A stretch of DNA of 27,477 nucleotides from a virus, in the IMG/VR virus record IMGVR_UViG_3300038954_000288, positions 1-27,477 of that record; one strand, 5' to 3'. This document shows, one piece after another, positions 990 through 27,477 of the stretch. Below the pieces are notes generated by a model. The model did not search any database. It had not been told where the DNA came from and saw only the letters and a list, made by a program, of their open reading frames with translations. Each line of letters begins with the position of its first letter. Position 1 is the first letter of the stretch. The position numbers were made by a program, and so were the translations under genes.

Positions 990-3323
990 TTACGCTCGCC
1001 AGCGGCCTTCTGCCGTAACGTCGGCTTCTCCGTTTAGCACCGCCAAATCGGTACGGGGATTGTACGTCCGAACTGTGACTTTTGTATTTGTGGGAGACCC
1101 CATTGTAACAACCACGTCGCCCGACGGTGCTGAACTCTGTCTATTTTCAATTCCGCTACAAACGGGTGCTTCTCCGGACGGATATGCTTTTGGAAAAGTC
1201 CAGTCGGTGATCCCGTCTGTTCCGTCCGTAACAAACGCGTGCCGCTGTTTCATTGTCCCATCAGCGTACCGCGTCCAGCTTCCTGTGGCATTATTTCCGT
1301 GATCCTTGTACTCCACGAGCCGCCACCGGCTCCCCGTCCACCGCACTCGGGCGTAGTCGTCTTGGGAGTCGATGTCGACGGACGCCACACCGTCTATCGT
1401 GTCCGCGCCCGCTGCGGCGAGGATGACCTTTCCGGTGCCGGAGTCGTCCTTGTCGACTTCGATCTCGTCCCCCGGTATCATCCCTGTGCCCGCCGGAAGG
1501 GTGATGGTGCGGTCGGTCGCTCCGGTGGTGACTTGGATCATCAGGGAGTCGGTGCGCCCGGTGATAGTGTAGTCGGTCGAGACGCTCTTGACCGCTGCCG
1601 GGGTGACGTTCTCGAGGAGGTTCGGGGCGTAGACGACGACGCGGTAGTACCATGACGATGTAATGATGCTCTGGACAGCACCGGAATCGTTCATGTAGAC
1701 GAGGCCCTGTGCCCCGGTCTGGATCTTGAAGGACGCGTCAGAAATTGCAAAAGTAGTTAATCCATAACTCGTTGTTGATCCCGGAAGAGAAGTGGGTACA
1801 TAACTTTCTGCGTTTATCTCAAACGCATTCGCATCGGTCCCGTCCGTGGAGATGAAGAACCTCGTGATAAGCTCCGGCAGCGGCACACCCAAATTGTGCG
1901 TAATGTTGAACTCCGCATTCGCCCAGTCACTGTTCGCAACCCACCCCGTATCGTACTTCGTGACGCTGAGTTCAGTGGCCAGCACTTCGGGGCGGTAGAC
2001 TTTGACTTTGTAGTACCACGACTCGGTGTCGATGAATGTTCTGGTACCAGAACTTTGTATATACCCAATACCATCTACACCCGTTTGCAACTTGATTGCC
2101 GATGTGTTGATCTGTAATGTGGTAATTCCGGCAGAGGTATTGCTGGACGTGGCGTTGTCGTATGCGAACTGCGGAGTGACTTTGAACGCATTCGCCTCTG
2201 TTCCGTCAGAAGACACAAGGAACTCCACGATTAGATCGGAAAGATTCGCGTTCAACCCATGCGTGACCGTGAACTCCGCATTGGTCCAATCCGAGTTGGC
2301 GACCCACCCCGTCGAGTAGCTGTAGGTCGGAAGCGGAGTGCCGGAGTTCGTGGCGGGAGTGGCCTTGATGCAGTACGTCACCCCAGCGGCAAACGGTCGC
2401 GTCTCATCGCCGGTGCGGGGTGTGCCGTTGGTGGTATCGGAAGACGGATCTCCGGCTCCAACATCCAAACTTGTGGCAACAGGACTGTCCCCAATTGCTA
2501 TTGAGTATAGATTTCCAGCGGTTTCGCCGCGATTTTGCAATTGTGCGTGCCGGTGTCCCTGCATCTGATCATCTTCAAACGACCCTACGCTCGGACCGGC
2601 GAACGCGGAGCCATCGGCCATCGTCTCCGACCCATGGCTCCCCGTGCCGCGCACGAACGCACCACGGAGGTCGGGTACGTTGAACGTGGTTGACCCGTCG
2701 CCCGAGCCCCACGTCTCGCCAATCGCGGCGAAGAGGTCGGCGTACTCTGTGCGGCTGATCGCAGACCCGTCACATAGCAACGAACCAATCGGAGCGGCGG
2801 TTCCGGCGTAGGGATAGATGGTGCCGATTTCCATGCCGCCGCCCTCGCCGGAGCCACCGCCGGTCGCCACCTGCTCCCAATACGACGCGTGGGCGATGAG
2901 AATCGTGGTCGTAACGTCCGCGGTGACGGTGATAGACGACTCAAGCGCAGCGCCGATACCATCCCCACCGGATGCGGTAATTTCTATCGAGTTGGCCGCG
3001 TTGACGTTGATGATGTAAAGCTTGCGCCCCTGATTGCTCGCCAGATCGGGAAGGGTAACACTGACCTCGCCGTCTGCCGTGTCGCATGCGATGATTGACG
3101 GCGAGACGTTGTCGATTACCAACGGCCCGTCTGTATCGTTCACGGTATCGATTCGCCGGTCCTCCATTGGCCGGAGGTCTTTGAGTTCCGTCACCCCGTC
3201 GCCGAGCACATGATAGGCTTCGTCGAGCACGACCGCCGTCTGGCCGACCGGGAGCACGCGGGTCGACGCTGCCTTGTCGCTTTCGTTTCCGCGTAGTCGC
3301 TGAATTTCTATGACGTCGCTCAT
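990..3323 (-). CDS. Tail fiber with Phage Collar domain and duplicated modules
   Basis: This 777-residue protein probably binds the host surface. Residues 1-70 are an attachment region. Residues 70-152 and 578-672 are two copies of a similar fiber domain (both with VTLP/TITLP, a Gly-Asp turn and a terminal YWEQV/RWRLV). Residues 165-228 carry a Collar domain (GTIYPYAGTAAPIGSLLCDG, NVPDLRGAFVRG), closed by GHRHA at 256-260 and RPFAAGVTYCIKA (309-321). Two tandem copies of a 112-residue module follow (about 337-448 and 458-570, both with TGWVANSDW, DGTxANAF and SWYY). The end (680-757, GSWTRYADGTMKQRHAF) is a common fiber tip. It starts at ATG 3323 within the hub gene (ATGA). Confidence 0.88.
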   Translation of the reverse strand: MSDVIEIQRLRGNESDKAASTRVLPVGQTAVVLDEAYHVLGDGVTELKDLRPMEDRRIDTVNDTDGPLVIDNVSPSIIACDTADGEVSVTLPDLASNQGRKLYIINVNAANSIEITASGGDGIGAALESSITVTADVTTTILIAHASYWEQVATGGGSGEGGGMEIGTIYPYAGTAAPIGSLLCDGSAISRTEYADLFAAIGETWGSGDGSTTFNVPDLRGAFVRGTGSHGSETMADGSAFAGPSVGSFEDDQMQGHRHAQLQNRGETAGNLYSIAIGDSPVATSLDVGAGDPSSDTTNGTPRTGDETRPFAAGVTYCIKATPATNSGTPLPTYSYSTGWVANSDWTNAEFTVTHGLNANLSDLIVEFLVSSDGTEANAFKVTPQFAYDNATSSNTSAGITTLQINTSAIKLQTGVDGIGYIQSSGTRTFIDTESWYYKVKVYRPEVLATELSVTKYDTGWVANSDWANAEFNITHNLGVPLPELITRFFISTDGTDANAFEINAESYVPTSLPGSTTSYGLTTFAISDASFKIQTGAQGLVYMNDSGAVQSIITSSWYYRVVVYAPNLLENVTPAAVKSVSTDYTITGRTDSLMIQVTTGATDRTITLPAGTGMIPGDEIEVDKDDSGTGKVILAAAGADTIDGVASVDIDSQDDYARVRWTGSRWRLVEYKDHGNNATGSWTRYADGTMKQRHAFVTDGTDGITDWTFPKAYPSGEAPVCSGIENRQSSAPSGDVVVTMGSPTNTKVTVRTYNPRTDLAVLNGEADVTAEGRWRA
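1614..2315 (-). repeat. Two tandem copies of a 112-residue fiber module
   Basis: Within the fiber, module A lies at about 1977-2315 and module B at 1614-1952. Both begin TGWVANSDWxNAEF, share an H-x-L turn and DGTxANAF, have ITTLQI/LTTFAI and IKLQTG/FKIQTG blocks, and end with SWYYxVxVYxPxLL. Less than half of residues match by eye, so the duplication is old rather than recent. Confidence 0.85.
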
Positions 3324-5953: not shown

Positions 5954-6729
5954 TAGAACGTCTCCCGTATACCGAGTGTCGTTACCGCCTTCGCCTCCGA
6001 GTTCTTGCGGAAGTAGCGCGGATCGAGCTGCAGCGAATCCGAGTCGAGAATCCCGTAGACAGCCTCGCCGGTCATGATGCAGTCCTCGTCGAAGTACCAG
6101 AATCGCGGCGTTGCGAAGCCCGCCTCCGCGATTCCGACGATGCGCGAGCGCAGCGTGCTAAACGTCTCTTCGACGATCGTCATGTCGATCGCGGCGTACA
6201 GATAGCTAGCCGAACGTAACGGCGTCCCGGCGCGCGTGATATTTCGTGGGTCGGTCGACTCGACGGTATAGTTGAGCGCGCCATCTGCGATCGTGAGTTC
6301 GTCGGAAAGCTCTCCGATGTAGAGATATCCGATCGAGAACTGCGTCGTATCGCCGACGTCGAACTCGATAACGACCTCATCCGCGCCGGCCGAATCGAAC
6401 GCGGCGACTGCGTAGTTCAGTTGTACCGGCGCGCTCACGGTAACTGTCCGCGATGCGACGTCCGAGGATAGATAGCGAAGCGTAACCGTCACCTGCGTGA
6501 TGGCCGTCATCCCTGCAAGCACGACGAGCGAGACGTCACGCTCTGCTTGAACGCCGCCGACTCGTAGCTCTGCGGTAATCGTCACGCCGCTCGCTCCATC
6601 CTGATTCGCGAAGTACGCTCGCGTGGTGCGCTGGTCTATGAGAACGCCTGCGCCAGTTATCGGAGTGCCGGAAACGCCCGCGATTCCGATACTGGCCGTG
6701 TCCGCGTAGTTCGTGGTCGTATATCTCAT
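5953..6729 (-). CDS. Tail protein, distal-tail-like, function unknown
   Basis: This 258-residue protein is translated from ATG 6729, which overlaps the tape measure stop (ATGA). It is rich in Thr/Val/Gly and mostly beta-like (VTITAELRVGG, VTVTLRYLSSDVASRTVTVSA), with a Phe/Tyr-rich end (ATPRFWYFDEDCIMTGEA). It sits where lambda-like phages encode the distal tail protein joining tube and tip. I do not see a decisive motif, so this is a placement-based call. The next gene starts at the last base of its stop (TAATG). Confidence 0.5.
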   Translation of the reverse strand: MRYTTTNYADTASIGIAGVSGTPITGAGVLIDQRTTRAYFANQDGASGVTITAELRVGGVQAERDVSLVVLAGMTAITQVTVTLRYLSSDVASRTVTVSAPVQLNYAVAAFDSAGADEVVIEFDVGDTTQFSIGYLYIGELSDELTIADGALNYTVESTDPRNITRAGTPLRSASYLYAAIDMTIVEETFSTLRSRIVGIAEAGFATPRFWYFDEDCIMTGEAVYGILDSDSLQLDPRYFRKNSEAKAVTTLGIRETF

Positions 6730-9305
6730 CGGTTCACCTGTACCGCTCCGCGCCGACGAATCTGAGCCGAGCCCTTGTTAAATGCCTGAGCGACGCGAGC
6801 GTCGAACTCTGCGCCGCCGATCGAGACGACGATCCGCTCCGGGAAACTACTTTCGCCGCCGCGCGTCGGAGTGACGTTTACCTCTTCGCCGGAGTTCACG
6901 CGTAGGAGTCCGCTGTCGTCGTTGTTACCCGGAGGTACGACGAATGATCCGCCGAACTGCGCAGCGGGGATTGGCTCAGCAAGGATAGTCGCGATTTGAA
7001 TTGCTCCGGTAGCCGCAGCAAGCCCGGCCAGAATGCCAGTAGGATCGACTGAAAGCGCCTTTGTCACGGCGAGAGCCGTGTTGATAATCGCCTCTGTCAC
7101 GGCAAGCGCTTTCTGCGCGACCGCTCTATCGCGTTCGTCTTCTATTGATCGATCTATGAGAGTGGAAGCGAAATCAAACGCGGCCTGACCAAGCTCGTTC
7201 TGAGCGTCTTTGACCTGCCTTGCAAGCTCGATCTTATCTTCTGCCGCCTCTTCATTGATACGCACCTCTTCAGCCCGCGCATCTCGCTCCGCGTCAACCT
7301 GCTCTTGCAGGATGCGCCGTCGCTCTTCGGCCTCGCGTTCTCGTCGCTCTCCGATCATCTCGGCTGTACGCTCAGCGTCCGCTCTGCGTAGCGCCTGGCG
7401 TTCTGCGATCTCATCTCGTACTGCTTCAAGGCGTTCTGCCGCTTGTTCTTTCTGTTGTTCGGTTCGCTGTATTTCTATCTCCGCCACAAACTCTTCGAGT
7501 CGTTCTCGCGCAGCTCGGCGTGCGGCAAAGCTCGCTCCTTCCGTCTCTTCAATCTGGCGCACTCGATCTTCGGCTAGTCTGATTCTGCCTTCATTGGTCA
7601 GCGTCTCGTCTTCGAGTATTTGGTTCAAAAACTCTTCGGCTGCGCGAGCCTGGCGCTCGTTTGCCTGTCTCCTGACCAATGCCGCGTTCAGACCTGCTTG
7701 TTCTATGACATCAACCTCGCGTTCAAGCTGGGCTTCGGTCTGCTCCACAATAGCTTCAAAGCTCCCGGCCTCTGCAAGTATCCCGATAGCTTCCTGGCGT
7801 ATTTCGTTGATTGTCTGCGTAGAGTCGGTAGTCACCTGTTCGAGCGAATCCGCCGTAGCCTGTGCGGTATTGACCGCTTCATCGCTCGCTGCGCGTAGCG
7901 TCTCATTGACGGTCGCTGCGGTCTCTTCGCTGGTCTGGCGAAACTTTTCGCGCAGTGATTCGCTTCGGTCTTCGGCGTTGTCGGTGAGCCCTTGGATACC
8001 TTCTACGGCGTTGCGTACCGTGGTCGCTAGCCCCTCGCCCGCTTCAGTTGCGAAGGTGCGAAATGCGTCGCCGGCCTCGCGGAACTGTTCTTTTACGTCT
8101 TCAAACGTCGCCTGCCCGGTGAGCACCTGGCCGAGCGAGCCGATAGCTTGGGCGCTCTCTCGCGCGGCTCTCACGAGGTTGAAAAACGCTGTCACATTGG
8201 TAATTACCAGATCGCGTAGGACGCCGAATCCGATTAAAGCCCCTTCGATGACTCCGCTGAGTATATCGAGCGCGATTCCGCTGTTCTGCGTGTTTGTCTG
8301 GAAATCACCGAGATTCGTGACCACGGTATCGATGATTCCTGCCCACGCTTGACCGAGCGCGTTGAAAAGCGTCTGCCCGATATCGAACACGACGCCGAAT
8401 GCGCCCGCTATCCCGCCAAATATATCAGAGATAATTTGCGCGCCTTGAACGGAGGTGACCCACTCGCGGATTCTATCGGCAACCTCAGCGACGCGTGATG
8501 CAATGTCGTTAAATGCGCGGATCGCAAGTGTAGCAAGGGGCAAGAGGGCTCCACCTAAAGATTCTGCTATATCCTGTACTCTTGCGTTCGCGATACGTGA
8601 TTGGTTCGCAAACGATGCCTGTGAGCGCTCGAAATCCCCGATTGCGTTTCCGCTCTGCTCTACGGCCAGTTGGAGCGTAAGCGCAGCCTGTTGCTGACGC
8701 GTGAGCTCACCGACAATACCTTTGTCCTCTGCGAGCCGGTCAATGTCGGCCTGAGTAATCGCGATTCCAAGCGTTTTCAACGACTCTCGTTCGCCAAGCA
8801 GCGCCTTGGTGAGCGCCTGGCTCGCTCCTTCCGCTCCGCCTGAGAAGTTGGTAAACGATGCAAGATCGACGGCAAGCTCCTGAACCTGCGTAGAAAGATC
8901 AAGGGCGCTCTCTCGCGTAAATCCGAATCCGGTAAGCAAGTCGCCGGTGTTTGCAAGCAATGACTCGGCCTCAGTCTGAGCAAGGCCGAAGTTTTCAGCA
9001 AGATTTCGCGCTGTATCCTGTGCCGCGCCTTGGACACCTTGGAACGTGACGCCAAACTTATTCGCTGTCTCTTCCGCGTCTGACGCGGCCTGTATGAGGT
9101 TTGATCCGAGTCGGCCTATCGCTTTCGCTGCACCTACTGCGAGAGCGGCGATGCCGATGCTCTTGAGCGCTTGAAATGCCTTGGTAGCGCCGCCTGCGGA
9201 CGCTCCGGCCTGTCTGGTCTGTTGCCCGAGCTGCCCCATGGAGCGAGAGGCTTTGTCGGCATTGGTCTCGATCTTGATTACTATCCGACTTGCTTCAACC
9301 GCCAT
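6726..9305 (-). CDS. Tape measure protein
   Basis: This 859-residue protein sets tail length and is threaded inside the tube. Its start ATG 9305 has GAGGAG eight bases ahead, 12 bases after the chaperone stop. It has an N-terminal Ala/Gly-rich part with hydrophobic segments (KSIGIAALAVGAAKAIGRLGS), long alpha-helical/coiled-coil tracts of Glu/Arg/Ala (RERLEEFVAEIEIQRTEQQKE, ERREREAEERRRILQEQVDA), and a C-terminal hydrophobic patch (GILAGLAAATGAIQIATILA). It is close in size to lambda gpH (about 850 residues). ATGA overlap with the next gene. No lysozyme or peptidase motif is visible. Confidence 0.93.
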   Translation of the reverse strand: MAVEASRIVIKIETNADKASRSMGQLGQQTRQAGASAGGATKAFQALKSIGIAALAVGAAKAIGRLGSNLIQAASDAEETANKFGVTFQGVQGAAQDTARNLAENFGLAQTEAESLLANTGDLLTGFGFTRESALDLSTQVQELAVDLASFTNFSGGAEGASQALTKALLGERESLKTLGIAITQADIDRLAEDKGIVGELTRQQQAALTLQLAVEQSGNAIGDFERSQASFANQSRIANARVQDIAESLGGALLPLATLAIRAFNDIASRVAEVADRIREWVTSVQGAQIISDIFGGIAGAFGVVFDIGQTLFNALGQAWAGIIDTVVTNLGDFQTNTQNSGIALDILSGVIEGALIGFGVLRDLVITNVTAFFNLVRAARESAQAIGSLGQVLTGQATFEDVKEQFREAGDAFRTFATEAGEGLATTVRNAVEGIQGLTDNAEDRSESLREKFRQTSEETAATVNETLRAASDEAVNTAQATADSLEQVTTDSTQTINEIRQEAIGILAEAGSFEAIVEQTEAQLEREVDVIEQAGLNAALVRRQANERQARAAEEFLNQILEDETLTNEGRIRLAEDRVRQIEETEGASFAARRAARERLEEFVAEIEIQRTEQQKEQAAERLEAVRDEIAERQALRRADAERTAEMIGERREREAEERRRILQEQVDAERDARAEEVRINEEAAEDKIELARQVKDAQNELGQAAFDFASTLIDRSIEDERDRAVAQKALAVTEAIINTALAVTKALSVDPTGILAGLAAATGAIQIATILAEPIPAAQFGGSFVVPPGNNDDSGLLRVNSGEEVNVTPTRGGESSFPERIVVSIGGAEFDARVAQAFNKGSAQIRRRGAVQVNR

Positions 9306-9671: not shown

Positions 9672-10030
9672 GTGCCCTCTCCCTCCTCGGCCATCTCTTG
9701 AATCGCTTCATTGATTTCTCGGAGGACCGGAGCGAGTTCGGTGTATCGGAAAATATCTGCCACGCGCATCTTTCGGCTGCGCCCGTCGATCTCGATCTCC
9801 GGCGGATTGACGAGTCCTTTGACCCAAGCCCGCGCCATACCGAGCGTATCGTAGACGGTACGCACGCTTCCCGTATCGTCGTACTCGGTTCGCACGCTCG
9901 CCTCACTCAACGTCTGATCGCTCGGACGCTGTAGCTCTACTCCAAACCGCTCGCCTTCGGGTAGCTCTGAGTTGTTTTCGATGTCGGGGTAAATCGTTCT
10001 CTTCGTCGGTGTGGTAATTCTGACCTTCAT
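9659..10030 (-). CDS. Tail assembly chaperone, short form (G-type)
   Basis: The start is the ATG at 10030 (MKVRITTPTKRT), preceded by GGAGGT; the 15 extra residues of the longer frame lie in the terminator region. The 123-residue product is a soluble protein ending AEEGEGTKNS. It sits between the tube and tape measure genes, where lambda-like phages encode G and GT chaperones that coat the tape measure during tail assembly. The last codons contain the slippery sequence A AAA AAC at 9665-9671, so a fraction of ribosomes should continue into the next frame. Its size agrees with the usual G-type protein (about 100-150 residues). Confidence 0.85.
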   Translation of the reverse strand: MKVRITTPTKRTIYPDIENNSELPEGERFGVELQRPSDQTLSEASVRTEYDDTGSVRTVYDTLGMARAWVKGLVNPPEIEIDGRSRKMRVADIFRYTELAPVLREINEAIQEMAEEGEGTKNS

Positions 10031-10046
10031 GCTACCTCCATTGAGT

Positions 10047-10093
10047 AAAAAAGCGGCCCGAAGCGGAGAAACCACACGCCGCTACCGGGCCGC
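10047..10093 (-). terminator. Intrinsic terminator after the tail tube gene
   Basis: On the transcribed strand an outer 8-base-pair stem (GCGGCCCG with CGGGCCGC) encloses a second 4-base-pair stem (CCGC/GCGG-type) and a loop. TTTTTT follows directly. The hairpin begins 14 bases after the tube stop and ends about 14 bases ahead of the next gene's GGAGGT site. Confidence 0.9.
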
Positions 10094-10107
10094 AGAACGG
10101 GGAGTGA

Positions 10108-10848
10108 TTACGTGTTCTCTTCGCTACGCGCTCTGCGGTAGAGGCCCGGAAGAACGGCCACGCTTGCCGCGCCTGCCTGCAGGATCGAGAACCGCATCGA
10201 GCTGTCAAACGTCTGCGCGTTTGCGCCCTGCTCCGCTCCAAGATTGAAGCCGAACAGCTCGATGGGAGCCCATAGCTCAACGTAATCACCGACGTCGAAT
10301 TTTTTGTTGAGTACGAGTCGGGCCAGTTTCGCGCCCTTCGCTTTCTCGTAAAGATCAACGGTATCACCGCCGTCCTGGCGGATGATATCGATGAAGTTTC
10401 GCGCGATCGCGATACCGTCGGTCTTGTCGGTCGTGCCGATGGTGAAGATACCGTTTAGCGTGCCGGACGCGTCGTCCTTGCCTGCGCGGTACTTTTTGAT
10501 GTCATCACAGAACGAAGTGATCTCTACCTCATCTGAGGTGAACTGCACACTCCACGCGGTGATGTCGCACAGCTCGGTGAGCGTCAGCGGTATGTAACTG
10601 TCGTTCGCCTCCGGGACGATATCCGTATCGGTGCCGCGTACCTCGATCACGCGACCTACGGTTACCTGCTGCGCACCGGCGGCTCCAGAGGTTCCCGGCC
10701 AGCCGGAGGGCGTTCCGATTGCGGTGATTATGTAGCGGCCCTCAGGCAATGGCGTCGCGCCGTCGCCCGATGCTTCGTCACCGAATACGCTGTCGAAGAT
10801 CGTCCCGTCGTCTCCGATCAGCTTCTGTCCGTCTCCCTTGAAAGCCAT
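10108..10848 (-). CDS. Major tail (tube) protein
   Basis: This 246-residue protein starts at ATG 10848 behind AGGAGG. The central stretch VQFTSDEVEITSFCDDIKKYRAGKDDASGTLNGIF is typical of tail tube proteins, in which a T-x-(D/E)-x(V/I)-x-x-T/S-x(F)-x-D segment precedes a strand. The remainder is Gly/Thr-rich and beta-like. The tube protein polymerises into the hollow tail. It lies after the tail completion and zinc-ribbon genes and is followed by a strong terminator, consistent with the high expression that the tube protein requires. The next genes are tail chaperones and the tape measure, the canonical order. Confidence 0.85.
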   Translation of the reverse strand: MAFKGDGQKLIGDDGTIFDSVFGDEASGDGATPLPEGRYIITAIGTPSGWPGTSGAAGAQQVTVGRVIEVRGTDTDIVPEANDSYIPLTLTELCDITAWSVQFTSDEVEITSFCDDIKKYRAGKDDASGTLNGIFTIGTTDKTDGIAIARNFIDIIRQDGGDTVDLYEKAKGAKLARLVLNKKFDVGDYVELWAPIELFGFNLGAEQGANAQTFDSSMRFSILQAGAASVAVLPGLYRRARSEENT

Positions 10849-10851
10849 ACG

Positions 10852-11046
10852 CTATTCCTCCTCGCTCTGCTCGGTCGGCTCTTCGACCGGCTTCTCTTCC
10901 GTTGCCGTTTCCGTTACCGTGCGGCGCTTCCGACGCTTCGGTGCTGGTTTCGGCACCACGTATACATGATAGCACATCGAGCACTCCCGTTGTCCATCGG
11001 ACAACCGTAGGCTTCGTGGGCTTCCACACACTGGGCACAGTATCAC
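10852..11046 (-). CDS. Tiny zinc-ribbon protein in the tail module
   Basis: The start is the GTG at 11046, with a perfect AGGAGGT seven bases upstream; a longer frame from 11079 lacks a site. The 64-residue product has four Cys (C4, C7, C22, C25) in a CPVCG...CSMC zinc ribbon. A basic patch (KRRKRR, 38-42 area) and a strongly acidic C-terminal tail (TEQSEEE) follow. It lies between tail completion and tail tube genes. No named family is recognised. The charge pattern resembles a nucleic-acid or partner-binding adapter, but position alone does not show what it does. Confidence 0.65.
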   Translation of the reverse strand: MILCPVCGSPRSLRLSDGQRECSMCYHVYVVPKPAPKRRKRRTVTETATEEKPVEEPTEQSEEE

Positions 11047-12872: not shown

Positions 12873-14300
12873 CTATACCTCCGCGTCCCACGTATGGGAG
12901 CCGCCGACCGTTGCCGGTTTGTTAGGTAGACACGAGAGCGTGATTAGCTCTCCAGCCACAAGTCGCGCGTCTAAATCGCCGAGTTCTATCGAACCGGAAC
13001 CGGGACCGATGACCGTTTCCGATAGGATCAGTTCGCCTCCGGTGAGCGCAGTTGCCGAGATATCATATTCGGCTGGCGAGCCGCCCGGCACAGCCTGTAC
13101 CCACGACGCGCCGGTTAGTGTCGCCCCGACACGAACTCGAAAGGTGCCGATCAGGTTCCCGGAACCGTAGGCAGCAAACGAGAAACGGTAGCCGAAAATC
13201 GCAAGCCGGTTCGGACTGCCCTCATACGTCTCGGGGGCGCGTACGCTTAGAATTGGCGTTTCCGTTCCTCCGGGAATGTCGATCGTGTTATCGATCGCGC
13301 CCAGCGCACGCAGCGCACGAGAGCTGTCGTCGCCCTCCATACCGACGGACGCGCTCGGACTGGCGAGCGTAAGATTGCTGGTATTCCCAGCGTTCTTGAC
13401 GTGCGCGTGAATGCGCAAGCTCGGATTCTGCAGCGATGTTTCGGTGAACGTGTTGGCGTACTGGATCCGATCGACGATGACGAACGAACCGAACGCCTTG
13501 TCTTCGATGTAGAATCGAATCTCGCCCGCGCCAAGCCACTGGAATGTGATCTGGTAGACGTTGAGCTTCGTCGGGTCGAAGTTGCTCGCGACGCCGAGCG
13601 GATCGGTCCAGTCAGTGCGAGGGGTGAAGTAGTCGACTCCGGCCGCTCGGCGCAAAACACCGAACTCGGCCCCGTTGTAGCCAAAGAACAGCCCGTCCTG
13701 CTCGTCGCCGTATCCGATGTACTGTTCGCTATCGGCGACGCCCTCGGTAAATCGTGCGGTGAACCGTACCATCCCGCCGATGCCGGGGAAGTATCGCATT
13801 GGTAGCCGGGTATCGAGTTCGGCCTCTCCGGCCGGGTCCGTTCCGGTCTGTAGAACGGCGAGCGATCCGTCGTGCGTAACCGTACCGCCATTCGTTTCGG
13901 TCGGGATGTAGTTGATTACGGAGATGTTGTACGGAAAGGCCCATCCGCTGCGCGGGCGGTACTCTGCTGTCTTCGTCTCCCCGAACGCGGTGACACCAGA
14001 AAATCGCGTTTCTCGATTCAGCCGACCCCCGGAACGATCGTCTACGATAACGACCGCACCGTTGTCTTTCGGGTACGCCCATAGCGTCGCGCCGTCGTTC
14101 GGATCGAACCAGTAGACTCGGCCGCCGCGCTGCGTCTTCACTGCAACCGATCCGGCTTTGTTGCCGTTCGGCGCTTCGGTCGGTTTCTCGATAGATTCGG
14201 CAAAGTAGCACTCGACCTCTTCGCCTTCGATTTGGTAATCGCTGGCGTATGTGGCGACGAGCTTCCATTCCTTTTTCAGTACGCGAATCGCTGTCGACAT
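12873..14300 (-). CDS. Large beta-rich putative virion protein, lectin-like
   Basis: The start is the ATG at 14300 (MSTAIRVLK), preceded by GGAGGT; a five-codon upstream extension is less likely. The 475-residue product is rich in Gly, Thr, Phe and Tyr and looks all-beta. A first region (about residues 1-90) contains IEGEEVECYFAESIEKP and WFDPNDGATLWAYP. The middle (about 125-320) has repeated beta-sandwich features such as MVRFTARFTEG, EQYIGYGDEQDGLFFGYNG, VYQITFQWLGAGEIRFYIED and SLRIHAHVKN, which resemble concanavalin-like folds. There is no recognised catalytic motif. It lies between capsid and head-tail connector genes, so it may be a head fiber or decoration protein that binds surfaces. 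The fold call is inference. Confidence 0.6.
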   Translation of the reverse strand: MSTAIRVLKKEWKLVATYASDYQIEGEEVECYFAESIEKPTEAPNGNKAGSVAVKTQRGGRVYWFDPNDGATLWAYPKDNGAVVIVDDRSGGRLNRETRFSGVTAFGETKTAEYRPRSGWAFPYNISVINYIPTETNGGTVTHDGSLAVLQTGTDPAGEAELDTRLPMRYFPGIGGMVRFTARFTEGVADSEQYIGYGDEQDGLFFGYNGAEFGVLRRAAGVDYFTPRTDWTDPLGVASNFDPTKLNVYQITFQWLGAGEIRFYIEDKAFGSFVIVDRIQYANTFTETSLQNPSLRIHAHVKNAGNTSNLTLASPSASVGMEGDDSSRALRALGAIDNTIDIPGGTETPILSVRAPETYEGSPNRLAIFGYRFSFAAYGSGNLIGTFRVRVGATLTGASWVQAVPGGSPAEYDISATALTGGELILSETVIGPGSGSIELGDLDARLVAGELITLSCLPNKPATVGGSHTWDAEV

Positions 14301-21529: not shown

Positions 21530-22393
21530 TTACTCCACACGCTGCTTTCGGCAACTCTCACGCAGAATCTTCGGAACAGCGTTATTCCAGCGGAGCTGAT
21601 GGTGCAGTCTCGGATGAACAGTTCCCATTGCCCTCACCCTGACAAAGCTCGGACAGTACATGACGCTATAGAACGACTTCACATAGGTCCCGATATCGAG
21701 ATAGATGTCGGTGAGACCTCCGGGGTTGTGCTGCGTCTCCATTTGATTCAGCCGAACGTGATTGATCTGGAAAAACAACTGCCCGCGTGATCCACCAATC
21801 GCATTGGCTGTTACATCTTCATTGATCCTGCCATAGCACTTCCACGGCCGCTCGACGTCACAGAAAAAGCTATTCATTGCCTTACGCTTCACCCACACTT
21901 TCTCGGCCATGTTCGAGGCCGCGCCTCCGAGAAAGTCGCCTGACTGAGCGAACGCTACAGTCGCTATCGACGTCGACTCGAGATATTCTACGACGGCGGT
22001 AAACACATGATCGAGGTTGCGAACAGGGCGATACGTGAATCTGTGCTGTTCGTCGAAACAGTATGCAAAAAACGTGTAGTCGTCGTCGAGCACGAGAAAA
22101 TACCGATACCCAAGATCACGCACGATGCCGAACGCTGCGTTGCGCGCGAAAACGACTCCCCGGTGACTCTGCTCGTTGTCTCCGGAATCGGTAATTTCGG
22201 CTGCTTCTGCTTTATCAAACACGATCACCTGATCGCCATAGGTTTGCCGGTAGAGCTCAACGGCGTCGTCTTCGTTGTCCACAACGAGATATACCGGCCC
22301 CGTATAACCACCTCTTTGCAGAACGCCAAGCGTAGGGATTCGGTTCGGCCGTGCGTGTGTGAGTATCAGAACGCAAAAGTCATTCCTCATCAT
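21530..22393 (-). CDS. TAGT-like glycosyltransferase (possible DNA-base glucosylation)
   Basis: This 287-residue protein opens with NDFCVLILTHARPNRIPTL, a GT-A type start. It has an acidic nucleotide-sugar loop (LVVDNEDDAVELY), the metal-binding LDDDY (residues 102-106), and characteristic later blocks: FAQSGDFLGG, RINEDVTANAIGGSRGQLF, GGLTDIYLDIGTYVKSFYSV and HHQLRWNNAVPKIL. From memory this pattern is that of the TAGT (TET-associated glycosyltransferase) family, described in phage loci that oxidise 5-methylcytosine and then attach sugars to the hydroxymethyl group. No TET/JBP dioxygenase gene is in the window. Two adjacent ATG codons (22393 and 22390) can start it. The gene is coupled to the ParB-like gene and lies just before the terminase genes. 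Family assignment is fairly sure, the DNA substrate is inference. Confidence 0.75.
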   Translation of the reverse strand: MMRNDFCVLILTHARPNRIPTLGVLQRGGYTGPVYLVVDNEDDAVELYRQTYGDQVIVFDKAEAAEITDSGDNEQSHRGVVFARNAAFGIVRDLGYRYFLVLDDDYTFFAYCFDEQHRFTYRPVRNLDHVFTAVVEYLESTSIATVAFAQSGDFLGGAASNMAEKVWVKRKAMNSFFCDVERPWKCYGRINEDVTANAIGGSRGQLFFQINHVRLNQMETQHNPGGLTDIYLDIGTYVKSFYSVMYCPSFVRVRAMGTVHPRLHHQLRWNNAVPKILRESCRKQRVE

Positions 22394-23195
22394 CTGGTGC
22401 GCTCTCTTCGTATAGCGTAGCCATGCGATCGGTCAGCTTCACGAATCCCTGCTCGATCGCTTTCTCGAAATCGATAATCACTAGCGCCGAATCTTCCATC
22501 AGTCGCTGCATCTGCGGCTCTGCGTGAGCGTAGTATTCTGCGATCTGGCTGTAATCGAACACCGTATGCCGCTCTGCAGCACGTCGGAGAAACCGCTTCT
22601 CGTCCTCAGACACCTCGGCGCGCTCAATGGCGTCGAGTAGCGCGTCTCGCTTCTCAGTATCGACCATCTGTTCGAACGACGGTGGCGTTTCCTGCGTCGG
22701 TTCGTAGATCGGCGTTTCGACCTTCCGCGTATACTCTTCGTCGTCCTCGGCGGTACCGTCCAGCGCCGAAACGTCCATCGCGCCCCCGGGTAGCGCAACC
22801 TCCTCCCAATCGACTTCGAGATTCGCCGTGAACTCGGTTAGCCCTTCGATAGTGATTGCGCCGTACTGGCTATTCAGCCGTAGGAGCTTTTGCTTCGCCT
22901 CGGCCTTCGTCTTCGCCTCGACCCACGAGACTGGTACCGGGGGTATCTCTACGCCCTCGCTTTCGAGACGACGCAGCGCTTCGATTCGCCCGTGCCCGTC
23001 GAGACACCATAGACGCTTTCGATTGCGCCAGACGAAAAACGGAAAGCTGAATCCGTAGCGCCGGATGCTGGTAATCATGCGCTGAATGTCATCTTCGTCG
23101 CGATTCTTAAGCGCACCCTGCAGTTCGTCCAGCTCGTGATAGTCGACTGTTGTGGCTCCCTCGCAAGCTATCGTGATTCGTTCCTGCTTACTCAT
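22380..23195 (-). CDS. ParB/sulfiredoxin N-terminal domain protein
   Basis: The start is the ATG at 23195 (MSKQERITI) with GAGGG five bases upstream, giving 271 residues; a 22-residue upstream extension overlaps the lipase gene and is rejected. Residues about 15-120 match a ParB-type domain: a proposed partner helix (DIQRMITSIRRYGFSFPFFV), then WCLDGHGRIEALRRL (64-78) with the GHxR signature. RLNSQYGAITIEGL follows, as in phage ParB-like proteins. The C-terminal half is acidic and helical and not recognised. Phage proteins of this class are usually not partition proteins; some are nucleases or accompany DNA modification genes. This one ends 14 bases inside the TAGT-like glycosyltransferase gene, and that coupling supports a link to DNA modification. 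Function is inference. Confidence 0.82.
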   Translation of the reverse strand: MSKQERITIACEGATTVDYHELDELQGALKNRDEDDIQRMITSIRRYGFSFPFFVWRNRKRLWCLDGHGRIEALRRLESEGVEIPPVPVSWVEAKTKAEAKQKLLRLNSQYGAITIEGLTEFTANLEVDWEEVALPGGAMDVSALDGTAEDDEEYTRKVETPIYEPTQETPPSFEQMVDTEKRDALLDAIERAEVSEDEKRFLRRAAERHTVFDYSQIAEYYAHAEPQMQRLMEDSALVIIDFEKAIEQGFVKLTDRMATLYEESAPDDEE

Positions 23196-23203
23196 CTTTT
23201 CCC

Positions 23204-23683
23204 TCAGTATGGCATGAAATATGCATGGTAGTCGACGTGCGCGATCCATATCGGACGCCACGGCTTATATGTCAGCCCGTGCTTGATTCCTGCGTACCAC
23301 GGCGGGAGTAGCGGTATCCAGTCTCCCCGGTGCCTGAGAGCGAGTACGTGACTTGCTCGGTGGACGGCATCGACGAACCGGCGATTTCCTGCGCGTTTGC
23401 TTGCGTACAGCGATAGCCAGCGTTTCAGCCCGTCTCGCTTGAATAGCTCTCGCGCGATGATCTGCGCAATTGCCCCTCCGCGCGAATGACCTTCGACGAT
23501 GGACGGCTTCAACCCCCGAATCGCCCGGAGGACGACAAGCGCCTCGTAGCGGTCCCACCGGTTCACCCGCTCGTTATCTCCGATGGTGCGTCCGGTCATG
23601 AAGTTGAACAGCCAATCTTGCGCATCGTTCGATCCGATGATCTGGAGCACCTGCCCGCCCTGTTTCAGCAGCCACTTAACCAC
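23204..23683 (-). CDS. Class 3 lipase-like alpha/beta hydrolase
   Basis: I place the start at the GTG at 23683, just before the end of the preceding gene, with AGGCAGG upstream; this gives 159 residues. QIIGSNDAQDWLFNF resembles the oxyanion-hole region of class 3 lipases (GTxxxxDW). EGHSRGGAIA carries the nucleophile elbow with Ser67. RHRGDWIPLLPPW supplies the Asp (about 121) in the GDxxPxLPP-type motif. HVDYHAYF near the C-terminus supplies the His (about 153). All three triad positions are therefore present in the right order. The protein is short for the family (usually 200-300 residues) and has no signal peptide, so it would act in the cytoplasm, on the virion, or on release at lysis. 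Ester substrate unknown. Confidence 0.75.
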   Translation of the reverse strand: MVKWLLKQGGQVLQIIGSNDAQDWLFNFMTGRTIGDNERVNRWDRYEALVVLRAIRGLKPSIVEGHSRGGAIAQIIARELFKRDGLKRWLSLYASKRAGNRRFVDAVHRASHVLALRHRGDWIPLLPPWYAGIKHGLTYKPWRPIWIAHVDYHAYFMPY

Positions 23684-23936
23684 GATTGCCTGCCTTCTGC
23701 CGCCGTCGTTCCTTCTCGATCTGCGCGTTGTGTACAGCAACGGTTCGATCGAGCCTGTCTTGGAGTTCGCTTACTCGACGCTTCAGCCGTTCGTTTTCCA
23801 TCAGTACGGTCTGCATCGCCTCGCGTGTCTTGTCGAGTTCGTCCGCCGTCACCCCCGTTTCAGGCTCCGCTTGTGCCTCGGCCTGCGGCCTCGCCGACCG
23901 CGTCTCCCGCAGTGTCGGGAATCTTTCATGCGCCAT
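23676..23936 (-). CDS. Small coiled-coil protein, function unknown
   Basis: The start is the ATG at 23936 (MAHERFPTL), with GGAGGG five bases upstream; a longer frame exists but lacks such a site. The 86-residue product has an Ala/Glu-rich low-complexity stretch and then a heptad-like helix from about residue 30 to the end (ELDKTREAMQ, ENERLKRRVSELQDRLDRTV). It is strongly charged, with no membrane segment. It overlaps the preceding zinc-ribbon gene by 11 bases, and the lipase gene starts inside its last codons. It is probably an oligomerising accessory protein. No family recognised. Confidence 0.6.
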   Translation of the reverse strand: MAHERFPTLRETRSARPQAEAQAEPETGVTADELDKTREAMQTVLMENERLKRRVSELQDRLDRTVAVHNAQIEKERRRQKAGNRG

Positions 23937-24162
23937 CGTATCCCTCCGGTCGTTTGCCTTCGCGCCAATCATAGACACTGATACTGCGCTCGATCTGCTG
24001 TACGGCCTTCATGACCTGCTTGTACGTATACGGTCCGTACGCGCCGTATTGTCGCTCAGCATGCTGGAACGCCCACGTGCGACGATCTTTCCACGCGACA
24101 CGGCACGGTGCGCACGATCCGAGGTGGTCATCGGCCTTCCCGTCGCACCACCGACATGTCAT
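23926..24162 (-). CDS. Small zinc-ribbon-like protein, function unknown
   Basis: This 78-residue protein has an N-terminal Cys pair C3-x2-C6 followed by C17-x2-C20, which fits a compact CxxC...CxxC zinc site. The rest is basic and Tyr-rich (QYGAYGPYTYKQ) with a predicted helix. It begins at an ATGA overlap with the dehydrogenase gene, so it is probably translated by coupling. I do not recognise a named family. Small zinc-binding proteins of this kind in phages often bind nucleic acid or partner proteins, but nothing here shows which. Confidence 0.6.
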   Translation of the reverse strand: MTCRWCDGKADDHLGSCAPCRVAWKDRRTWAFQHAERQYGAYGPYTYKQVMKAVQQIERSISVYDWREGKRPEGYDGA

Positions 24163-24971
24163 TGCTCAGCTTTCCAGTCGTCGTTCAGCGCATCGACCAC
24201 CTCGAGAAGTGACGCCATATAGCCGTTTTCTCTGGCGGCGTGGATCATCGCTGGAACGTCTTTGTTCAGGCAGTGCGAATCGTAGTAGCGCTGCCCCACG
24301 AAACTTTGCGTATGACTCCGTCCGATGCGCGGGTCGTTCAGTAGAAGTTCGCGCCACTCGTCGTACTCGACGCCGAATGTCTCGCAGATGCGCGCCCACT
24401 CGTTGAAGAACGTCACCTTCGTTGCGAGGAACGCGTTTTCGGCGTATTTCACGAGTTCGGCTGTAATCGCGTCGGTGAAGTGAATCCGAAACGTGCTCGG
24501 CTTCGCACGCTTGTAGACTTCCGCGACCAGCCGCCGATGAGCGGTCTGGCCGCCGATGATCACGAATCCGTCGTCGATCTGCTGCGAATCGAGCGTCGCT
24601 CCGGTAAACTCCGGCGACATGCATACCCGATAGCCCTCGTCGATCATCGAATGGGTGAAGCCGGGCGGTACCGTACTCTTGATCACGAGCACGTCGCATC
24701 GCTCGCCCCATTGCTTTATCGCGCTCTCTACAATCGCGGTATCGGCTGCGCCTCCAGGGAGTCTTGGGGTCGGAACGCAGACAAAGCCGACTGTCCACCG
24801 GCGATCGCTTTCGATGGTCCGGTACTCCCTCGCGCCACCACCGAATGTCGTCGTTTCGACTACCTCTCCGGTATGATAGCCCTGCTCCGGGTCATAGATA
24901 CTCGCTTCCGGGAAGATACGGCCCATATCCTTGCCGACTACGCCGTAGCCGATAATCAGAACGTCGCTCAT
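24159..24971 (-). CDS. UDP-glucose / nucleotide-sugar 6-dehydrogenase, short form
   Basis: This 270-residue protein follows the UDP-glucose/GDP-mannose dehydrogenase pattern almost end to end. It has an NAD-binding GYGVVG (residues 8-13), VCVPTP (64-69), IKSTVPPG (97-104), SPEFTG (119-124), ELVKYAENAFLATKVTFFNE (172-191, with the Lys and Asn of the active site) and SHCLNKD (232-238) carrying the catalytic Cys234. Known members oxidise UDP-glucose to UDP-glucuronate with two NAD+. The usual C-terminal UDP-binding domain (family length about 390-450 residues) is absent: the protein stops soon after the catalytic Cys region and a helix. Start and stop form ATGA overlaps with both neighbours. It could feed a uronic acid to the glycosyltransferases in this block. 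Confidence 0.88.
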   Translation of the reverse strand: MSDVLIIGYGVVGKDMGRIFPEASIYDPEQGYHTGEVVETTTFGGGAREYRTIESDRRWTVGFVCVPTPRLPGGAADTAIVESAIKQWGERCDVLVIKSTVPPGFTHSMIDEGYRVCMSPEFTGATLDSQQIDDGFVIIGGQTAHRRLVAEVYKRAKPSTFRIHFTDAITAELVKYAENAFLATKVTFFNEWARICETFGVEYDEWRELLLNDPRIGRSHTQSFVGQRYYDSHCLNKDVPAMIHAARENGYMASLLEVVDALNDDWKAEQ

Positions 24972-25645
24972 AGATTGCCTCCTCGAAATCGGAAGATCGC
25001 AGCCGTATTGCGCGGCCCCGGCACGCGTTCCGGGCCGTCAAACCACGCGTGTTGCTCCTCGAACCATGCGACCGTTTCGTGTAGCTCCGGTCGGCTCGGC
25101 TGTGTCTCGTAGAAGTAGTAGTCCATCATCACGATCGGAGCGCCGTGGACGAGCGACGTCCAGAAGCGACCGAAGAGTAGGTCGAGCGCTTCGGTGCCGC
25201 TGGTCATATCGTCGACGAGCATACCGATCGGCCGGTCAGGCACCGAGTCTCCGGCGTAGACGTCGCCGACCTCGGAGCGAATGTCGCAGGGAAGATCGAT
25301 CACATTCTCTGCCCACATACGCCAGAACGATTCGCGGCACGGGAGGGCGAGTTTCAGCTTCGCCCATGCCTTGTCTCGATACGCGTCGCTCGCGAACCAG
25401 CGATCGTAGCAGTGAATCGGCGCGCCGGCCGTGCCCCCGAGCATGCGACCCATCACGAGGTAGGCTGTTGTCGAACCGAGAAACGGCCCAATGTCGGCAA
25501 TGGTATATCGCGGGTCGATCTCGCGTGCGAGTTTCACCAGCGTCGGGGCGATCGTAGCGCCGCCGCCTCCCAGTTCGGGGATACTCGCCGCTCGATTCCA
25601 GATCGGAAAGATCGCTTCGTCGTCAATCAGAGGTAGTGAAACCAT
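24968..25645 (-). CDS. Second class I methyltransferase-like protein
   Basis: This 225-residue protein starts at the ATG at 25645; a TTG two codons earlier is also possible. YTIADIGPFLGSTTAYLV resembles a Rossmann motif I with a Gly-rich loop, and IHCYDRWF supplies the acidic residue after the second strand. IGMLVDDMTSG and IVMMDYYFYE look like the later strands of the fold. It resembles the methyltransferases found in polysaccharide clusters, but the motifs are less canonical than in the preceding gene. It overlaps the upstream methyltransferase gene and its stop overlaps the start of the dehydrogenase gene (ATGA). Two different methyltransferases side by side suggest two distinct decoration steps, which is inference. 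Confidence 0.6.
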   Translation of the reverse strand: MVSLPLIDDEAIFPIWNRAASIPELGGGGATIAPTLVKLAREIDPRYTIADIGPFLGSTTAYLVMGRMLGGTAGAPIHCYDRWFASDAYRDKAWAKLKLALPCRESFWRMWAENVIDLPCDIRSEVGDVYAGDSVPDRPIGMLVDDMTSGTEALDLLFGRFWTSLVHGAPIVMMDYYFYETQPSRPELHETVAWFEEQHAWFDGPERVPGPRNTAAIFRFRGGNL

Positions 25646-26190
25646 GTGCAATCCCCGTCCGTTTCGATGTCGTCGAATGCCTCGTCGACCGCGCGCTGTA
25701 CGCCCGGGAAACGGGGCAAATTCAGGTAGTCATGTCCGCCGATCCAGCCCCCGGGCCGAACCTTCGGGAGCCAGATTGCGATGTCGCGATTGACGCCTTC
25801 GTACGTGTGCTCCGCGTCGATGAATACGCAGTCGAGCGACGCATCATCGATCTGCATTGCCGCCTCTGTGCTCCAGTCACGAATGATCGCAATTCGATCA
25901 CAGTAGCGACTCGTTGCCCGCACAGTCTTCACGTAGCAGTCGTCGAAATATCGCTGATCGTTTTTCGCGATCCTATCGGCCGACTTCGCGTAAGTCGATT
26001 CCGGGTCGGGCGCGGTCCACGCGTCGACCATGATCCATTGAAGCATCGGCCGTGCGGAAAGCACCTCCTGCGCGGTTCTGCCCATCCAGACTCCGATTTC
26101 GGCCCCGACCCATCGTTCGTTCGACGGTATGCGCCGGAGGATTGCTTGCCACCGGCGCGGTCGGTTCGGATCAGGTTGTTTTTTTGGCAT
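25627..26190 (-). CDS. Class I SAM-dependent methyltransferase (Methyltransf_24 / TylF-like)
   Basis: I place the start at the ATG at 26190 (MPKKQPDPN), preceded by AGGAG eight bases upstream. The longer frame upstream adds only 46 Arg/Ser-rich residues that overlap the sulfotransferase gene. The 187-residue product has the SAM-binding loop GAEIGVWMGRTA, an acidic residue in VDAW after the second strand, and the block FIDAEHTYEGVNRDI followed by RPGGWIGGHDY. These are typical of the Methyltransf_24 group, whose members often O-methylate sugars or secondary metabolites. It lies between the sulfotransferase and a second methyltransferase-like gene, and its stop overlaps the next start. O-methylation of a sugar is inferred from context; the substrate is not visible. 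Confidence 0.8.
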   Translation of the reverse strand: MPKKQPDPNRPRRWQAILRRIPSNERWVGAEIGVWMGRTAQEVLSARPMLQWIMVDAWTAPDPESTYAKSADRIAKNDQRYFDDCYVKTVRATSRYCDRIAIIRDWSTEAAMQIDDASLDCVFIDAEHTYEGVNRDIAIWLPKVRPGGWIGGHDYLNLPRFPGVQRAVDEAFDDIETDGDCTWFHYL

Positions 26191-26794
26191 AGCCGAATCT
26201 CCTGTAGGCTGTCTGTTCTGCTTGCTCGAACGCTCGGATCGTCTCGATTTCCGCATCGTCCGGGTGCGGGAAAGTGTTGCGAGCCTTCGCTGCCGACGCC
26301 ATCGCAATGCGGGCGGCGACCGGATCAACGCCGAGTCGATAGAGCAGTTGGGGAAGATCGTCCACCATCCAGCCGGTATCGTAAACGTCAGAGTTGGGCC
26401 AGTCGGCGAACTTCATATAAAGGCTCGTGACCCATCCGGTGCGAGCGGTCGCGATCCACCAGACGAACTCCGAGAAATCATCGCGGGCCCCATCCGGCGG
26501 GTCATTGATCTGCGCGAATGGATGCCACCACCGGCCGTCTTTCGTGTGCTTCGGCCAGCGTGGCCAATCCCATGCATGCTGTAGCGCCCATACGCTTCGG
26601 ATGAATCGATACGGATGCCGGATGAAAACGCGGTGCCGTACGGTCATGTCCATCGGTACGACGCCGGGACAGTCGTGCTTCCGGCCAATCGCGTTTCCAA
26701 GTACGCCGGTACCCCGCAGAACTTCCGTCACGTACGTCCCGCCGCATCGTGGCATGTGCAGAAAAATGCTCCCGTCGATCAGGTAGAAAGCCAT
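26171..26794 (-). CDS. PAPS-dependent sulfotransferase-like protein
   Basis: This 207-residue protein opens with FLHMPRCGGTYV (residues 11-22), which matches the 5'-phosphosulfate loop (PKxGGT-type) of PAPS-dependent sulfotransferases. HRVFIRHPYRFIRS (about residues 54-67) matches the 3'-phosphate binding motif (RxPxxRxxS). In the known family, a sulfuryl group is moved from PAPS to a hydroxyl or amine, most often on a glycan. The protein is shorter than typical 250-350-residue family members and has no signal peptide or membrane segment. It overlaps the upstream glycosyltransferase by 16 bases and the downstream methyltransferase by 20 bases, so it is probably co-translated with glycan-modifying partners. 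Sulfotransferases are unusual cargo for a phage. Substrate unknown. Confidence 0.8.
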   Translation of the reverse strand: MAFYLIDGSIFLHMPRCGGTYVTEVLRGTGVLGNAIGRKHDCPGVVPMDMTVRHRVFIRHPYRFIRSVWALQHAWDWPRWPKHTKDGRWWHPFAQINDPPDGARDDFSEFVWWIATARTGWVTSLYMKFADWPNSDVYDTGWMVDDLPQLLYRLGVDPVAARIAMASAAKARNTFPHPDDAEIETIRAFEQAEQTAYRRFGYAKKTT

Positions 26795-27477
26795 CGGACC
26801 TCCTCGAACGTGTCGAGATCGACGGTATGTCGCTTACCGACCTGATACGAAAGACGATCATTGGAATCGTCATGCCCGCCGCGCTCTTTTCGTGATCCCT
26901 TGCCGATGATGTCTTCCGGCGTCAGTCGGCCGCCGTGGCCCCGGATGACTTCGCTTTGAGTCCGGGGGAGCCACCGAAGATGTACGCACCGCAGCTCCGC
27001 GTTGTGCCACGGCGTCAGCGCGTGGATCACCGTCGTGCCCTTCCGCACGCGCCGGGTCTTCGCATGGAATAGGGTACGCTGCCAGTCGCACGACCACGAC
27101 TCGATGTTCGCGAAGTTGTAGAGCTTCGTCGGATTGTGCGACGGCGGTCCGAGCCATCCTTGCGCGAGTTCTCGACCGTCTTCGGCGATCCATGTGCGAT
27201 CGACGTGCAGGTACATTCCTTTCAGTTGGTAGGCGTACCCGGCGTGCCCGGTCTTGAGCCGCTTCCGCATCGCGGCAAGGTCTGATGGGTGGTAGAGTTC
27301 GTCGCCGTCGACGCCGAAGACCCATGTGTCCGTTCCGACGTACGGCTCGACGTACTGGTGCGTATGCGTCAGGTATTCCTCGTAGAAAACGTCGTACGGA
27401 ACGTTTGCATGATCGAGCGCGGCGCGAGCGCACTCCTCGGTGTCGTCGGTGCTACCAGTGTCGATGAACCGGATGTA
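26779..27477 (-). CDS. Family 2 glycosyltransferase, 5' end cut by the window edge
   Basis: The reading frame enters from the right window edge and stays open for 232 residues to its stop. The first visible residues contain DTGSTDDTEE, the nucleotide-sugar binding signature of GT-A (family 2) glycosyltransferases. About 45 residues later comes FGVDGDELYH, which fits the metal-binding DxD motif. The remainder is rich in Trp and His and not recognised. An ATG at 27270 could be mistaken for the start, but it lies downstream of both GT-A motifs, so the true start is outside the window. The gene overlaps the following sulfotransferase gene by 16 bases, which suggests translational coupling. The acceptor cannot be deduced: glycan, virion protein and modified DNA base are all possible. 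The family call is solid; the role is inference. Confidence 0.85.
   Translation of the reverse strand, partial: YIRFIDTGSTDDTEECARAALDHANVPYDVFYEEYLTHTHQYVEPYVGTDTWVFGVDGDELYHPSDLAAMRKRLKTGHAGYAYQLKGMYLHVDRTWIAEDGRELAQGWLGPPSHNPTKLYNFANIESWSCDWQRTLFHAKTRRVRKGTTVIHALTPWHNAELRCVHLRWLPRTQSEVIRGHGGRLTPEDIIGKGSRKERGGHDDSNDRLSYQVGKRHTVDLDTFEEVRWLST

Follow-up and report, generated by a model that had tools for sequence, protein, structure and literature searches.

A conserved phage gene set for putative sugar transfer, sulfation, methylation and oxidation that includes a two-domain UDP-glucose dehydrogenase-like enzyme

Results

Five consecutive genes at one end of an uncultured phage contig encode a glycosyltransferase (GT), a sulfotransferase-like protein (ST), two methyltransferases (MT1 and MT2) and a short relative of UDP-glucose dehydrogenase (UGDH), and they form a conserved module that reaches wider than the first-pass annotation of this DNA could see. 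The contig, which we call the window, is a linear virus record from IMG/VR, 27,477 bases long, with its genes on the minus strand; the module spans positions 24159-27477 of that strand, with overlaps of 4-20 bp between consecutive genes. The first-pass annotation had described five consecutive overlapping genes of these classes as a sugar-decoration set, and all five were present on the minus strand and the set itself was supported. We give about even chances to the reading that the module yields a short O-linked glycan carried by a head protein of the virion.

The GT (26779..27477) has lost its 5' end at the contig end and 232 residues are present. This truncation explains its weak Pfam score, and the assignment to family GT2 comes from the full-length copy (262 aa) in a sister contig, which matches PF00535 (E 6.3e-7). 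Directly upstream of that copy the sister carries a sixth gene, a GT8-like glycosyltransferase, which was also found in the more distant locus L045 and is missing from the window because the contig ends there; the operon thus begins at least one gene further upstream, past the contig end. The ST (26171..26794, 207 aa) is followed by MT1 (25627..26190, 187 aa), a class-I SAM methyltransferase matching Methyltransf_24 (PF13578, E 6.7e-18), and by MT2 (24968..25645, 225 aa), a class-I SAM methyltransferase-like protein that gave no Pfam match itself and whose relatives match Methyltransf_24 weakly (E 2e-4 and 0.017). A PHROG label (2675) would make MT1 a DNA methyltransferase, an assignment disfavoured by its Methyltransf_24 features and by the absence, by eye, of a PPY-type motif. 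The last of the five genes (24159..24971, 270 aa) encodes the UGDH-like dehydrogenase. Its stop is overlapped by a 78-aa ORF (23926..24162) with CxxC pairs, zinc-ribbon-like by eye, to which neither Pfam nor PHROGs assigned a family. A coiled-coil-like protein of 86 aa (23676..23936) and a Lipase_3-like serine hydrolase with the motif GHSRGG (23204..23683) come next; the hydrolase, which accompanies the module in the sister and in L045, is possibly a module accessory.

The sister contig (G001, 29,294 bp) keeps the GT, ST, MT1, MT2, dehydrogenase, coiled-coil and lipase genes, and the module is likewise retained in a second relative (G002), 98% identical to the window where the two overlap. An M23-like lysin gene lies at positions 44-631 of the window and at the far end of the sister, which suggests a genome of about 41 kb. 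Between MT1 and MT2 the sister contains an extra ORF that resembles, by eye, an HNH-type homing endonuclease. The dN/dS ratios between window and sister, calculated for four module genes with MT1 left out, were 0.068 for the GT, 0.153 for the ST, 0.086 for MT2 and 0.056 for the dehydrogenase; the lipase gave 0.287, and the head genes 0.043 (TerL), 0.048 (portal) and 0.070 (MCP). This indicated that the four module genes are under purifying selection.

The same gene order was searched for elsewhere and found in L045, a locus reached through the dehydrogenase, which is 51% identical to that of the window. The genes there run RusA-like, GT8, GT2, ST, MT1, MT2, dehydrogenase, two small genes and lipase, followed by a PAPS_reduct-domain protein, a ParB-like gene, TerL, portal and MuF. 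A random import restricted to few genomes and carrying broken genes is ruled out: the genes are intact and conserved with low dN/dS, their order recurs in a distant phage, and related sets occur in many phage lineages.

The ST gave neither a Pfam nor a PDB sequence match, and sequence searches against solved structures were equally unproductive of a convincing match for MT2 and the GT8. It carries the PAPS-site motifs FLHMPRCGGT and VFIRHPYRFIRS, the 5'-phosphosulfate loop and the 3'-phosphate motif being judged by eye against known motifs. Both are retained in a relative with 34% identity, and H13, P15, R16, G18-T20, R59 and S67 are invariant across three aligned sequences. AlphaFold predicted its structure with moderate confidence (pLDDT 68.6); each of the 50 structural matches listed for the model is a PAPS sulfotransferase, aligned over nearly the whole chain, the best of those listed having Z 8.1 over 165 residues (rmsd 4.0 Å). 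A Z near 8 is weak by itself, and it is the unanimity of the matches together with the motifs that makes this model-based assignment of the ST as a PAPS-dependent sulfotransferase likely. A single-sequence query of viral_contigs recovered no relatives, and the three-row alignment matched only the sister and the L004 record in the same collection. A second, different sulfotransferase-like gene occupies the same place, with GT8, MT1, dehydrogenase and portal genes, in L034, L048, L052 and L055; it has a below-cut-off Pfam match to Sulfotransfer_3 in L034, L048 and L055, and was assigned in L052 by similarity to L034 only. The occurrence of two ST types beside related gene sets indicated that sulfation recurs by two routes.

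The dehydrogenase matched both the NAD-binding and the central domain of UGDH (PF00984, E 1.1e-21), and its match to TIGR03026 (E 9e-40) was limited to residues 56-267. The catalytic residues Glu121, Lys175, Asn179, Cys234, Lys237 and Asp238 are present in the window enzyme and, together with Arg215, are invariant in 67 of 67 distinct phage sequences, a short family with a median length of 258 aa from which two 564-aa proteins had been excluded. The chain stops where the UDP-binding domain should begin: it aligns with UGDH structures over only their first ~300 residues (Z 22), and the UDP-binding domain PF03720 was found in 0 of 31 phage records whereas the control genomes were positive in 14 of 14. 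Its absence is therefore a conserved trait of the phage family and not a single truncation. UGDH structures (3gg2, 1dli and 2q3e) share with the phage enzyme the NAD-binding and central domains and the catalytic Cys, Lys, Asn and Glu; the phage enzyme differs from them in having no C-terminal UDP-binding domain and in the loop before the catalytic Cys, which does not read GxGYGGSC as it does in the aligned UGDH. The 3-hydroxyisobutyrate and beta-hydroxyacid dehydrogenases (3pdu and 5je8) resemble it over the whole length of their two-domain architecture (Z 17-19), but they rank below the UGDHs in the same structural list, and the sequence-family match is to UGDH and not to them.

From its sequence, the short dehydrogenase is probably an active oxidoreductase, of unproven substrate. 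The earlier name of UDP-sugar dehydrogenase thus holds for the NAD-binding and central domains and the catalytic residues and fails for the C-terminal domain that binds UDP, and without that domain the making of a UDP-uronate donor, as had been proposed for the module, is unproven and doubtful. That the protein is nevertheless an ordinary UDP-glucose dehydrogenase, still making UDP-glucuronate so that the module supplies its own uronate donor, is possible, and the invariance of every core catalytic residue and the position of the gene after a nucleotide-sugar-type dehydratase in L008-L011 are in its favour; the alignment that ends at about residue 300 of the UGDH structures, the changed pre-Cys loop and the lack of PF03720 throughout the phage records leave it rather doubtful. 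Oxidation of the sugar after its transfer is plausible, and would fit either a virion protein or DNA as acceptor.

Just downstream of the module, both in the window and in L003, lies a cassette of a ParB-like gene (22380..23195 in the window) and a TAGT glycosyltransferase gene (PF20691; 21530..22393), which we judge to be outside the module. The TAGT had earlier been joined to the sugar genes as a possible source of a base-linked sugar to be extended, a link that did not survive comparison with relatives. G001 and G002 both have another ParB protein in place of the ParB-TAGT pair, accompanied in G001 by a DNA-methyltransferase sequence, whereas the module is retained; TAGT is present in 2 of 12 and 0 of 9 related records, and ParB-TAGT pairs occur without the module in phages of E. 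coli, Lactobacillus, Nocardia and Haloarcula. L045 has no TAGT. The cassette is a separate, exchangeable unit, and membership of TAGT in the operon is ruled out, as the two closest relatives have exchanged it and most module phages lack it.

These results bear on DNA hypermodification, the strongest rival to a virion glycan, according to which the module would extend or decorate a base-linked sugar set by TAGT or another enzyme. Besides the neighbouring cassette, the cultured Microbacterium phage Honeyfin has the order ParB, distant TAGT-like GT (phrog_842, E 2.8e-4) and short UGDH, a dehydrogenase whose sugar is already linked to DNA would have no need of a UDP site, and computational work has predicted phage base-modification systems that use GTs and sulfotransferases (Iyer et al., 2013, as cited in PMC10829341). 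We nevertheless consider this explanation unlikely, given the exchange of TAGT while the module stays, its absence from 10 of 12 and 9 of 9 records, and the existence of ParB-TAGT pairs elsewhere without the module; a thymidylate-synthase-type hydroxymethylase was found in 0 of 14 records, all of them fragments. A TET/JBP dioxygenase had no match in the records searched, a weak negative since the control matched nowhere.

Phage-encoded GTs cluster with structural genes in the related loci. Nine of the 12 distinct loci with a GT8, which are not phylogenetically independent, place their GT8, MT1 and dehydrogenase genes in the stretch bounded by TerL and the major capsid gene (L003, L004, L005, L034, L048, L052, L054, L055 and L058; terminase or portal to capsid); head genes were labelled with PHROGs for some loci and by local similarity searches for others. 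Of the remaining three, L045 carries the set upstream of the terminase genes as in the window, L047 directly behind the capsid gene and L057 next to head-tail connector-like genes. That such sets accompany head genes in several lineages favours, and does not prove, a virion-protein acceptor, and lends support to the earlier suggestion that the module decorates the virion, with a structural protein as the putative carrier of the glycan. The dN/dS of the module genes (0.056-0.153, vs. 0.043-0.070 in head genes) also speaks for a virion glycan. Against it, the modules of the window and L045 are upstream of the terminase genes, outside the head cluster, and some dehydrogenase loci (L053) have no GT8. 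Cargo genes often adjoin terminase and portal genes, so gene position is circumstantial.

Enzymes of the glycosyltransferase, methyltransferase and sulfotransferase classes are known from the decoration of bacterial surface glycans as well, and the module could modify a host-surface glycan for receptor masking or superinfection exclusion. The loci L008-L011, where a Polysacc_synt_2 (CapD-like) gene precedes the dehydrogenase, and L008-L010, where a GT2 gene follows it, are consistent with this role. On the other hand, we saw among the module genes no partner for polysaccharide export, no membrane partner of Gtr type and nothing resembling a membrane GT, a flippase or a polyprenyl-linked step, and placement among late head genes suggests, as far as gene position can, late expression, which together make a host-surface target quite improbable. 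A search of a bacterial genome collection (genome_contigs) recovered no relatives of the GT8, queried with one pattern, or of TerL.

Discussion

For the virion head glycan that we favour, the enzyme families, their conserved gene order, the missing UDP-binding domain and the recurrent placement by head genes were seen directly; what the acceptor is, in which order the steps follow, which substrates are used and what the phage gains are inferred. The GT8-like and GT2-type enzymes would transfer the sugars, the Methyltransf_24-type enzymes would O-methylate them and the ST would add sulfate drawn from host PAPS. The two-domain UGDH-like enzyme would turn a primary alcohol into a carboxylate; as it is unable to bind a UDP-sugar in the normal manner, it may do so once the sugar has been transferred. 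The finished glycan may mask or charge the capsid surface. The full proposal, in which undescribed and widespread phage modules make sulfated, methylated, uronic-acid head glycans and a two-domain UGDH oxidises the acceptor-attached sugar and not a UDP-sugar, is tentative and, taken as a whole, more probably wrong than right by a good distance.

If the proposal is true, virion glycosylation, so far a feature of a few cultured actinophages, is found in many uncultured lineages as well, and sulfation, by means of two unrelated-looking sulfotransferase types, joins the chemistry of phage particles. It would also single out a family of phage enzymes, annotated as UDP-glucose dehydrogenase, that lacks the part that holds UDP in the known enzymes.

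Known systems share parts of the module. Glycosylation of mycobacteriophage virion proteins (capsids and tail tubes) by phage-encoded GTs is described as established (PMC12363180), and in Che8, Corndog and Myrna the GTs, which sometimes share the genome with a methyltransferase gene, are thought to decorate virion proteins (Freeman et al., 2023, via PMC12363180 and PMC13313380), a combination that resembles the module. The module adds to it sulfation and a minimal UGDH, no sulfotransferase being mentioned for mycobacteriophages in the passages of these sources that we draw upon; it differs further in its GT8 and in both ST types, none of which had relatives in 50,697 deposited phage records. 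Our literature search found no paper joining phage, sulfotransferase, GT and methyltransferase with UGDH or capsid. With the TAGT/ParB DNA-glycosylation cassettes and T-even DNA glucosylation (PMC13390438) the window has in common a TAGT beside ParB just downstream of the module; this TAGT is swapped out in close relatives and unlinked to the module. The dehydrogenase also has a counterpart in the trio of ParB, GT and short UGDH of Microbacterium phages (Quhwahvirus), which, unlike the module, has no ST or methyltransferase annotated alongside. There the short UGDH adjoins the glycosyltransferase and ParB and is annotated as "UDP-glucose dehydrogenase". Dozens of the Microbacterium phages deposited have a gene with this annotation, which makes the question of what the enzyme oxidises testable in culture.

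The exchange junction directly past the lipase gene, whose position is common to the window, its sister contig (G001) and the other closest relative (G002), is a swap site for DNA-modification genes. The cassette of ParB and the TAGT glycosyltransferase in the window (21530-23195) was replaced in the sister by a ParB with DNA-methyltransferase sequence (G001, 9705-10952), and another ParB protein was found in its place in G002 (counterpart at L007, 1249-1815). An additional ORF, inserted in the sister only, lay between the two methyltransferase genes MT1 and MT2 (L020; G001, about 13400-14058); judged from its sequence, it reads like an HNH-type homing endonuclease. Elsewhere in the window (990-3323), the translation of the tail-collar/fibre-like protein shows a similar domain (TGWVANSDW...) twice.

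In the distant phage of locus L045, a PAPS_reduct-domain protein (PF01507, E 7.8e-11; 7337-7963) adjoined ParB; this phage also carries the sulfotransferase module.

The short UGDH-like dehydrogenase also appeared in other contexts. It was incorporated in 564-aa proteins (L076 and L077, ORF at 6044), being perhaps joined there to another domain. In another phage group (L008-L011) it was preceded by a Polysacc_synt_2 (CapD-like) gene; in L008-L010 this pair followed a terminase gene, and a GT2 gene came after the dehydrogenase. Among cultured phages, ParB, a distant TAGT-like glycosyltransferase and the short UGDH, there annotated as 'UDP-glucose dehydrogenase', formed a trio in Microbacterium phage Honeyfin (gp83-85; L021, 6602-8777), and cultured Microbacterium phages with this trio, such as Honeyfin, constitute a tractable test case.
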